The notes below the pieces were generated by a model. It was not told the DNA's origin. It saw nothing but the letters and a program-made list of their open reading frames with translations, and made no database searches. Positions 5,244 through 8,603 of a stretch of DNA of 64,000 nt are shown in pieces. The position numbers were made by a program, and so were the translations under genes. This DNA is from Actinomycetes bacterium. Lineage in GTDB: Bacteria; Actinomycetota; Actinomycetes; Streptosporangiales; Streptosporangiaceae. The stretch is from assembly GCA_021792855.1 (NCBI GenBank), contig JAJYTW010000001.1, positions 1 through 64,000 on the forward strand. Direction: 5' to 3'. Positions within the stretch are counted from its first letter, which is position 1. Each line of letters opens with the position of its first letter.

Positions 5244-5828
5244 TCAGTCGCTGAGCATCCGGTCGTAATCGTCCTCCGGCAACCGCAGGTCGTTCCTGAT
5301 CCGGTACCGCAGACGGAGCAGATCCCGCAGTCCCGAGCCGGGGTCCTCGCGCGGGTCCGGCACGTCCTCGCCGGATCCGCGCGGCGCGTTTCGCAGGACG
5401 TACTCAACCCCGGCGTCAGCCCACTCCAGTGCACCCGGCAGATCGGACTGCTCGACCAGGGCCTCCATCACCATGTCGCAGGTGCGCGGGTCGGTCCTGC
5501 CATCCTCCTTCACCCGGCCGAGCAGCGCGTAGGCCTCCTCAGGCTGGCCAAGCTGAAAGAGCGCCCGGCACAGCGGCACCCGCGGATCGATCTCCACCGG
5601 CCCGCCGTCGGCGATCGCCAGCCGGAAGCTCCGCGCGGCCTCCAGCGCGTTGTCGGCGAGCAGCCACTGCTCCCCCGCCCGGACGAACGCCTCGGCACGG
5701 GCCAGCGACAGGCTCTCCGTACCGCTTCTGGCAAGCATGAGCATCCGCTCCGCGGCGGCCTCATGCTCACCGGTGGACGCCGCGTCAAATTCAATGGCGT
5801 CAAATTCCTCGCGACTCAGCACCGACAC
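5244..5828 (-). CDS. TPR-like helical repeat protein, function unknown
   Basis: Cytoplasmic 194-residue all-helical protein with TPR-like repeats (for example AFVRAGEQWLLADNALEAARSFRLAI and ALFQLGQPEEAYALLGRV). Such proteins usually act as scaffolds; no catalytic motif is visible. It begins with GTG at 5828, with AGGGG a few bases upstream. It lies 60 nt downstream of the NYN-domain gene on the same strand, so the two may be cotranscribed. It converges on clpB with a 38-nt gap. I cannot assign a specific function. Confidence 0.75.
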   Translation of the reverse strand: MSVLSREEFDAIEFDAASTGEHEAAAERMLMLARSGTESLSLARAEAFVRAGEQWLLADNALEAARSFRLAIADGGPVEIDPRVPLCRALFQLGQPEEAYALLGRVKEDGRTDPRTCDMVMEALVEQSDLPGALEWADAGVEYVLRNAPRGSGEDVPDPREDPGSGLRDLLRLRYRIRNDLRLPEDDYDRMLSD

Positions 5829-5888: not shown

Positions 5889-8603
5889 CTACCGTCGCGC
5901 GTTTTCCAACGCCTCCCAGAATCCGCGACGCAGTGAATGGCGGACCTCGTCATGCAGCAGCGAGTCGATTGGCAAGGCGGATCCCTGCAGCAACCTCGCC
6001 TCCAGATCCGACGGCATCCGCGGCTTGCGCGCGAGCACCGCCTCCAGCCAGAGGCCGGGGGCGTCCCGGCCGACCGACTCGCCGAAGCCGAAGCCCTCGG
6101 CGTGCGCCGCCCGCACCGCGTCCGGCAGCGACATCGGCGCCGGCTGGGCCGGGCGGGCGGCCGGCACCTGGGCCACCTCCTGGCCGGGGTACTGCGCCTG
6201 GTACTGGCCGGGCGGAGCGAACCCGCCGCCCGGCTGACCCTGGCCCGGCCCAGATCCGGGCCGGATCGGCTCGCCCGCAGCCGACCCTGGGTACGGAGCC
6301 TGCTCATACGGCCGGTACGGCGGGTACTGCCCCGGCACCGGGGCCGCCTCGAAACCTTGCCCGCTACCCGGTCTGGCCTGCTGCGATGCGCCAGCACTCG
6401 GGCCCCCGACCGCTGGCTGGTAGCCGCCGAACGGAGCGGCGCCCGCCTGGTGCGGGCCACCCTGGTAGGGGCCGGTCTGCGGGGATCCCGTTGAATACCC
6501 GTTCTGCGCCCCGGCCGGATAGCCGTTCTGGAAACCTGACTGGGCGGGGGCGCCGGGAGCGCCAGGGTGGCCACCCGGCCGCGCCCCTGACTGCCCGGCG
6601 CCGCCCGGCGCCGCTCCTGGCTGATAAGGGCCGCCGACCTGCGGGCCGACCTGGTAGGAAGCCGATCCGTTCTGGCTGGGGCCATTCTGCTGCGGCGAGT
6701 TCTGGCCAAAGCCGTTCTGCCGCGAGCCGTTGCCTAGCGCGCCATTCTGGCGGTCTCCGCCCGCGGTTCCGTTCTGGCGTGAATTAAATCCGTTCTGCTC
6801 GGTACCAGCGCCATTTCGATCCGCGCCGTTCTGGTATGGCCCGACGTAAGTCGTGTCGGCCTGATATCCGTTCATCGCTATATCAGACGACGCACCGGCC
6901 GGACCGCCCACTCGGTAGGAGCCGTTCGGTGACTGGCCGTTCTGGCCATGCCCGTTACCCTGCGCGCCCGAGGTCCCGTCGCCCGGCGCGGCACCGGCAT
7001 ACGGGCCGGAGTACTGGCCGGTGCCGTACGAGCCGGTGCCGTACGAGCCGGTGCCGTACGAGCCGGTGCCGTTCTGGCCCACGTCGCTATGACCAGCGTC
7101 GTACTGGCCGGCCCCATTCGAGCCCGTTACGCTCTGGCCGTAGCCGTTGTGATCCGCGCCGTTTGAACTCGCGCCAGGCTGGCCCGGGGAGTTCTGGCCG
7201 ACCCCGTTCCCGCCCGCAGTAGCCTGGCCAGCGCCGTGCTGGCCAGCGCCGTGCTGGCCAGCGCTGGTCGGGCCTGCGCCGCCGTAGCCGCCATTCGCCT
7301 GGCCGACACCGTTCGGAGTGGCCGTTGACTGGCCCCCGCCGAACTGCCCCGTACCCGGGTACCCGGCCACGCCGGGGTAACCCGCCGCAGGGAGCGCCTG
7401 CTGCCCGCCGCCTGCCTGGGCCGAGCCGGGATGGGCCGGAACCCCGCCCGGGAAACCCTGGCCAGCCTGGGCCGCACCGGGCGTGCCCTGCCCGGAGGGG
7501 ACGCCTGCACCGGCGCGACCCGCAACGTCGGCCTGCGCCGGAGCAGGCTGGCCGCCGCTGTCCTGCCCGGTGCTGCTAACACCGGTGCCGCTAACACCGG
7601 TGCCGCTAACACCGGTGCCGCTAACACCGGCGCCGTCGGCGTCACCAGACCGGCCGGCGGTCATTGCTCCCGCTCCGGTGCTGCGCGACCCGCCGTCGCC
7701 GTAAGGTTGGTCCCCGAAGCGGTACCCCGGTGCGGTACCCAGCCCGTAACCATCCGTCGTGGGCATTGTCCCACCCGGTGCCGACGTTCCCGCGCCAGCG
7801 GTGCTTCCGGCAGGCGCGGGAAGCGCGGCCGGCTGCCTGCCGCCCGCAGCACCATGCGTTCCGCCCGAGGCCGCGGGGACGAACGCACCGGCCCCACCAG
7901 CACCCGCACCAGCCGCACCGGCGAAGACCGCCGCGGCGCCCAGCAAACCGGGATCGCTCGCTCCCGCACCCGCGCGCACGGAGCCCGCCCCGGCGTACTC
8001 GCCGCCGCCGAGCGACGCCCCCGCGGGCGCCCGCCCGTACTCCTCATCGGGCCCGGTCGGCTCGGCACCCCGGATCAGTTCCACATGCGGCCGGAGATGA
8101 ACCCCGGAGATCTCGACAATGTCGTCGCATTCCTGGCGCAGCGCCTGCGGAATCGTCCACCCGTCGTTGGCCGAGATGTGCAGGATGACCACCCGGATGC
8201 CGAGGTCCTGCACCTCCGCGACAATCTCCGCCACGTGCTCGTCCGCGCTCGCGACGAACGCATCGCTGATCGCGCCGTTCTTCGCCAGGGTTAGCAGGTC
8301 GCGCCGCAGCTGGCTTTCGATGCCCTCGCGCCGGCCCGGCCGGGAATCGACCAGCCGGAGCTTCAGGCCCGGAATCTCGGCGAGCGCGTCGTGCTCGACT
8401 GTCCGTGCCCCGTCCGCTACGGTCTCGTACCAGTAGCAGCGGAGCACCGGAAGGCCGGTGCGGTCCCTCGCGAGCCCGGCCAGTAGTTTCAGCAAGCCTG
8501 CGTGATCCCAGGAGACGGAGTCCTGGCGGCGCGTGCCATGAACGGCCATCGCGCCGTCGGCTAGCGCGTAGCCGGCATCAACGAAGAGCGCGCAGCGATC
8601 CAC
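5889..8603 (-). CDS. NYN-domain (PIN-like) protein with giant low-complexity region
   Basis: The N-terminal 170 or so residues form a NYN domain, a PIN-fold predicted metal-dependent RNase: ALFVDAGYALADG at the start carries the first acidic residue, and DAFVASADEHVAEIV and VVILHIS follow. The last 85 residues (about 820-904, from SLPDAVRAAHAEGF to EALENARR) are a second conserved-looking helical region. Between them lie about 640 residues of Gly/Gln/Asn/Ser/Ala/Pro-rich sequence full of NG, GQ and GTG repeats, several encoded by perfect 15-bp tandem repeats. It starts with GTG at 8603, with an AAAGGA box upstream. Function is inferred only from the domain: RNA cleavage or binding. The middle is predicted to be disordered and prion-like. 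Confidence 0.85.
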   Translation of the reverse strand: MDRCALFVDAGYALADGAMAVHGTRRQDSVSWDHAGLLKLLAGLARDRTGLPVLRCYWYETVADGARTVEHDALAEIPGLKLRLVDSRPGRREGIESQLRRDLLTLAKNGAISDAFVASADEHVAEIVAEVQDLGIRVVILHISANDGWTIPQALRQECDDIVEISGVHLRPHVELIRGAEPTGPDEEYGRAPAGASLGGGEYAGAGSVRAGAGASDPGLLGAAAVFAGAAGAGAGGAGAFVPAASGGTHGAAGGRQPAALPAPAGSTAGAGTSAPGGTMPTTDGYGLGTAPGYRFGDQPYGDGGSRSTGAGAMTAGRSGDADGAGVSGTGVSGTGVSGTGVSSTGQDSGGQPAPAQADVAGRAGAGVPSGQGTPGAAQAGQGFPGGVPAHPGSAQAGGGQQALPAAGYPGVAGYPGTGQFGGGQSTATPNGVGQANGGYGGAGPTSAGQHGAGQHGAGQATAGGNGVGQNSPGQPGASSNGADHNGYGQSVTGSNGAGQYDAGHSDVGQNGTGSYGTGSYGTGSYGTGQYSGPYAGAAPGDGTSGAQGNGHGQNGQSPNGSYRVGGPAGASSDIAMNGYQADTTYVGPYQNGADRNGAGTEQNGFNSRQNGTAGGDRQNGALGNGSRQNGFGQNSPQQNGPSQNGSASYQVGPQVGGPYQPGAAPGGAGQSGARPGGHPGAPGAPAQSGFQNGYPAGAQNGYSTGSPQTGPYQGGPHQAGAAPFGGYQPAVGGPSAGASQQARPGSGQGFEAAPVPGQYPPYRPYEQAPYPGSAAGEPIRPGSGPGQGQPGGGFAPPGQYQAQYPGQEVAQVPAARPAQPAPMSLPDAVRAAHAEGFGFGESVGRDAPGLWLEAVLARKPRMPSDLEARLLQGSALPIDSLLHDEVRHSLRRGFWEALENARR
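7021..7065 (-). repeat. 15-bp tandem repeat x3 in NYN gene
   Basis: Three identical 15-bp units encode SYGTG repeats in the low-complexity region. Perfect identity at the DNA level points to recent slippage or unequal recombination. Confidence 0.9.
7224..7253 (-). repeat. 15-bp tandem repeat x2 (plus a partial copy) in NYN gene
   Basis: Two identical 15-bp units plus a diverged third encode QHGAG repeats. Confidence 0.8.
7576..7635 (-). repeat. 15-bp tandem repeat x4 in NYN gene
   Basis: Four 15-bp units, the last with one mismatch, encode GTGVS repeats. The repeat length of exactly five codons keeps the frame when copies are gained or lost. Confidence 0.9.

Follow-up and report, generated by a model that had tools for sequence, protein, structure and literature searches.

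We found that a core gene, near-universal within one family of soil actinobacteria, encodes a NYN-domain protein with two conserved domains that are joined by a low-complexity linker that is rebuilt repeatedly by in-frame tandem duplication, with constraint at the amino-acid level on the repeats. On balance, we lean slightly towards a housekeeping-type protein in which the NYN domain would be flexibly tethered to a putative docking domain through this composition-constrained linker. Such a flexible tether is more likely than a prion-like condensate maker, as which the middle of the protein had originally been predicted. The window, which is the whole 64,000-nucleotide stretch of DNA that was analysed, belongs to a draft genome of 4.7 Mb in 380 contigs that clusters with Streptosporangiaceae-type soil genomes. 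An open-access literature search found no paper on this NYN protein family. The coordinates of the gene (whose product we call the window protein), its parts and its neighbour are given in Table 1.

Table 1. The NYN gene of the window, its domains, arrays and active-site positions, and the adjoining gene.
Feature	Coordinates	Strand	Remarks
Whole NYN gene	5889..8603	-	904 aa, GTG start
NYN (PIN-like) domain, residues 1-177	8073..8603	-	PF01936 matched by all 57 orthologues aligned
D9, first catalytic Asp position	8577..8579	-	86/86 invariant; equated with MARF1 D358 by N-terminal VD motif (probable)
E96, second catalytic Asp position	8316..8318	-	D 63, E 23 of 86; opposite MARF1 D426 (weak match, E 0.17)
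D121, third catalytic Asp position	8241..8243	-	D 77, E 8, N 1 of 86; opposite MARF1 D452 (weak match, E 0.17)
H123, last acidic position of S-G-D-E-D motif	8235..8237	-	Asp in 80 of 86; replaced by His in the window's genus
Low-complexity, presumed disordered linker, residues 178-822 (~645 aa)	6138..8072	-	Composition, length
15-bp array, GTGVS	7567..7635	-	4.6 copies, 96%
15-bp array, AGQHG	7224..7264	-	2.7 copies, 100%
15-bp array, GTGSY	7017..7072	-	3.7 copies, 100%
QNG-rich stretch, peak Gln+Asn density	6639..6878	-	24 of 80 residues
Conserved C-terminal domain, residues 823-904	5892..6137	-	Helical-looking; no Pfam model
TPR-like gene	5244..5828	-	Co-directional, 60 bp downstream of NYN gene; weak TPR_19 match

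Comparisons were made among 86 non-redundant full-length family proteins, the window protein included, and stand at the level of species because the genome collection holds one genome per species. With the NYN domain as query, we found an orthologue in 35 of the 36 other genomes of the bacterial family; in the one genome without it (G003, 77% complete), only the paralogue turned up. Outside the family but in the same order, one of four genomes has an orthologue (G037, 61% identity). When a profile of the C-terminal domain was run on a class-wide sample, all 27 listed family genomes matched and the matches outside the family were weak; one of these falls within an NYN protein of a different family (G486). 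Genome G619 (C2:50121-50358) has a further, partial match to this domain, split into two pieces and possibly a decayed duplicate. The three-part architecture is found in all complete orthologues, which bears out the predicted layout of a NYN domain, a low-complexity middle and a conserved C-terminal region. The reading frame is kept end to end in the orthologues, so the open reading frame is real; read by eye, an AAAGGA-type ribosome-binding site lies about 9 nt upstream of the GTG on the same strand.

The locus is flanked by clpB and pyrE. The TPR-like gene is a probable operon partner of the NYN gene: it adjoins the NYN gene in 23 orthologue loci (among them those of the window's genus, Actinomadura and Nocardiopsis types) and was not found beside it in Nonomuraea or Streptosporangium. 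A tandem repeat with a unit of 276 bp (92 residues) lies downstream of the NYN gene in about 30 loci of Nonomuraea and Streptosporangium, L014 and L016 among them; the gene that carries it reads like a multi-HAMP sensor kinase beside a response regulator and occupies the place that the TPR-like gene has in other genera. A defence system and a phage origin were considered and rejected, with no match in PADLOC or PHROGs, respectively, and Rfam gave no match to a non-coding RNA within the window.

Taken by itself, the window protein scores 16.7 bits against PF01936 (21.5 bits for the domain alone), below the Pfam cut-off of 24.2; however, all 57 aligned full-length orthologues match PF01936 at E<0.01, and because of these matches the NYN assignment of the original prediction stands. 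The domain has a mean identity of 79% and matches actinobacterial NYN paralogues in a profile comparison (E 2e-40). Against the PDB, the combined NYN profile found designed proteins only, and the HMMER alignment to MARF1 (6fdl) is weak (E 0.17). The catalytic residues of the B. fragilis NYN protein, D13, D118 and D143, correspond to D358, D426 and D452 of MARF1 (PMC11346440). In the window protein, the catalytic set would be D9, E96 and D121, with Glu at the second position, in addition to a D123H change; D9 falls outside the HMMER alignment and is placed by the VD motif. Across the family, all 86 proteins have D9, D102, S119 and E122, and overall the family looks like an intact nuclease. In the window's clade the enzyme may be weakened: the catalytic aspartates drift there, so the nuclease activity of the window protein is uncertain. 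An RNA-turnover factor, as proposed, is plausible from the NYN domain, with even its RNase activity uncertain because of this drift.

One might go further and propose that in the window's clade a catalytically weakened NYN domain binds RNA or protein and that the C-terminal domain carries the conserved function, which we consider unlikely. This proposal would fit the window protein's E96 and H123, at two positions that are Asp in the majority of the family, the N121 that replaces the third catalytic Asp in a sister-species orthologue (L003, 93-2561) and the E121 of eight relatives. It would also fit the long branch of the window's genus (0.39 changes per column on the tree of the two conserved domains) and the C-terminal domain of the window, which retains 79-89% identity to most family members and 68-72% to the Nocardiopsis types. 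However, the four invariant residues speak against it, D-to-E changes can keep metal binding, and the NYN pN/pS of 0.05 in close pairs elsewhere in the family (mean of ten pairs of orthologues) indicates strong constraint there.

The C-terminal domain, which had been picked out as conserved-looking, is even better conserved than the NYN domain, which would fit a role in binding: its mean pairwise identity is 90% over 75 aa and its pN/pS is 0.04 between close orthologues (mean of ten pairs). We found no consistent Pfam or PDB match for it, and a LOTUS identity, which was considered, had nothing in its support. With hhalign it does match the corresponding C-terminal domain in other actinobacterial NYN proteins at E 2.3e-8 (probability 95%), whereas the best of the controls (12 column-shuffled and one reversed) reached E 0.014. 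These homologous C-terminal domains make the window's family a branch of a wider architecture of NYN domain, linker and C-terminal domain. A paralogue in the window's own genome (G000:C292:5683-6699; L002, L144) has a NYN domain (54 bits), an Ala-rich linker and a homologous C-terminal domain, and proteins related to it are found in Streptomyces-like and other genera. The domain is thus a conserved, unnamed module common to several actinobacterial NYN families and a good target for partner finding.

Between these ends, the predicted in-frame 15-bp tandem repeats are present as three arrays, two of them perfect. None of the window's array units is arrayed in three sister species, which carry other 15-bp arrays or none, so that repeat content differs between species, each represented by one genome. 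Linker arrays occur in 61 of the 86 proteins. Array density is 1.74 per kb in the orthologous linkers as compared to 0.22 in flanking DNA (8-fold), the period is divisible by three in 161 of 164 arrays, and all 48 of the family's pentapeptide units contain Gly or Pro. Among base periods, 15 bp accounts for 38 of 100 in the linkers and for 15 of 135 in the flanking DNA (p 1.4e-6), counts that are not independent of phylogeny. Compared with arrays in other low-complexity coding sequence, the difference is 38 of 100 versus 9 of 42 (p 0.08), and we do not claim that a preference for 15-bp units is specific to this gene.

The copies within arrays differ mainly at silent sites, with a pN/pS of 0.25 in frame as compared to 1.19 and 2.38 in the shifted frames, where detection of arrays by similarity biases the copies towards likeness, though not towards silent differences. 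Between close orthologues, linker pN/pS is 0.33 (mean of ten pairs), so that the linker evolves faster than the two ends; the precision of these values is limited by the similarity-based detection and by the shared ancestry of pairs. The linker is thus not free, and is constrained in the kind of residue more than in sequence. These values bear on the idea that the middle is a neutral, slippage-prone spacer whose sole function is to stay open, which we regard as quite improbable. The fast turnover of the linker, with arrays that are species-specific even within a genus, and the high array density would be expected of such a spacer; however, both pN/pS values are well below 1, classes of composition are kept, and no complete orthologue has a linker shorter than 113 aa.

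Linker length ranges from 113 to 663 aa across the 86 proteins. Relatives lacking the middle altogether, which would have spoken against the original prediction, were not seen among the complete orthologues; short linkers evidently suffice for the protein. Scored as a linker of at least 400 aa, length has to change 8 times on the tree of the two conserved domains, at least 7 of them by well-supported branches. Charged residues make up a median of 3% of the linkers and hydrophobic residues 9%, and linker composition drifts across the family from Pro/Ser-rich to Gly-rich: Gly rises and Pro falls with linker length (Spearman 0.63 and –0.52, uncorrected for kinship). The coefficient of variation across linkers is 0.13 for 2P+G, 0.23 for Pro alone and 0.38 for Gly alone.

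In the window, the linker consists of 27.7% Gly, 16.2% Ala, 10.1% Pro, 9.2% Gln, 7.6% Ser, 5.0% Thr, 4.8% Tyr and 3.9% Asn. It is of low complexity, as had been described; however, the label Gly/Gln/Asn/Ser-rich is only partly right, since Ala and Pro outweigh Ser and Asn. By the classical cut-off, a region counts as prion-like from 30 Gln+Asn per 80 residues upwards. The peak in the window linker lies above the 17 or fewer found in 449 flanking ORFs that served as background, and below this cut-off, which is passed by only 2 of the 86 proteins. One of these (L099, 918-2279) peaks at 37 Gln+Asn per 80 residues and comes closest in the family to a prion-like composition, with a linker only 192 aa long; the other is L003, with QNG and QPGQY repeats. 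A Gln+Asn-rich composition is thus not a stable trait among orthologues, and we reject the prion-like domain on Gln+Asn density.

The NYN protein may form condensates. In line with the original prediction, its Gly/Tyr/Gln-rich middle might act as a scaffold that drives phase separation and concentrates RNase and RNA in a BR-body-like manner, which we think quite unlikely. What would suit a scaffold is a long, uncharged low-complexity region attached to a nuclease-type domain, with the Tyr content and the QNG and GTGSY repeats of the window; phase separation is known from Pro/Gly-rich repeats, elastin-like peptides for example (PMC5703643), and RNase E condensates are a bacterial precedent. However, all but two of the 86 proteins stay below the prion cut-off for Gln+Asn density, aromatic residues make up only 6.5% of the linker in the window (family median 3.4%), the linker can be very short, and its composition drifts. 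It is very unlikely that the Pro/Gly-rich linker is an adjustable elastin- or resilin-like polymer on an RNA-acting protein, its length and condensing strength tuned by duplication and repeatedly re-tuned between short and long in different lineages, to which the at least seven well-supported changes in length might point.

In the flexible tether that we favour, the N-terminal PIN-like domain would be the RNA-acting part, and the C-terminal 80 residues, near-invariant in the family, would dock onto a conserved putative partner, for which the product of the TPR-like neighbour is one candidate. The uncharged, flexible linker, rich in Gly, Pro, Ser, Gln and Ala, would let the docked NYN domain reach its RNA. 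Selection would preserve the composition of the linker (low charge, low hydrophobicity, high Pro plus Gly) and not its sequence or length, so that replication slippage could freely lengthen or shorten it, in frame and with acceptable residues only. The disorder of the linker, the docking, the tethering and the RNA substrate are what we infer; the architecture, the pattern of conservation, the repeated in-frame expansion and the constraint on the repeats are observed. The drift of the catalytic aspartates in the window's clade counts against this arrangement of enzyme, tether and dock. The family is a natural experiment on disordered linkers: in a single core gene, over 80 sequenced linkers, which differ widely in length and composition, lie between two fixed ends, and one can ask what property of a disordered region selection preserves.

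Several known systems resemble parts of this protein. Like elastin- and resilin-like repeats, in which high Pro plus Gly keeps the chains disordered (PMC5703643), the linker carries short repeats with Gly or Pro in every pentapeptide unit; in contrast, its units differ in nearly every lineage, its hydrophobicity is low and it is presumably intracellular. With bacterial prion-like proteins (e.g. Rho of Clostridium botulinum) it shares a low-complexity region rich in uncharged residues; however, Gly, Ala and Pro dominate in the window, Gln+Asn stays under the cut-off and the trait is not kept in orthologues. RNase E, which forms condensates in bacteria (BR-bodies), is likewise a bacterial nuclease with a disordered region, presumed disordered in our case. 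The nuclease fold of RNase E is unrelated to NYN, and condensation has been shown for RNase E, whereas for the NYN protein it is hypothetical.

The other actinobacterial NYN proteins, including the same-genome paralogue and those of Streptomyces-like and other genera, share the NYN domain, the linker and the homologous C-terminal domain; however, they are 27-33% identical to the window's NYN domain, have mostly short linkers and carry a complete G-D-E-D or G-D-x-D motif. With MARF1 and the CRISPR-associated B. fragilis NYN protein, the window protein shares a PIN-like domain, the N-terminal VD motif, an S-x-D motif and three placeable catalytic acidic positions. In contrast to these, its second catalytic Asp is Glu, it has no detected RRM or LOTUS domain, and it has a long low-complexity linker and an unnamed C-terminal domain. 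MARF1 combines RNA cleavage by its NYN domain with recruitment of decapping factors through a C-terminal segment (PMC6294520). MARF1 is thus the closest functional parallel, by likeness of layout and not by membership.
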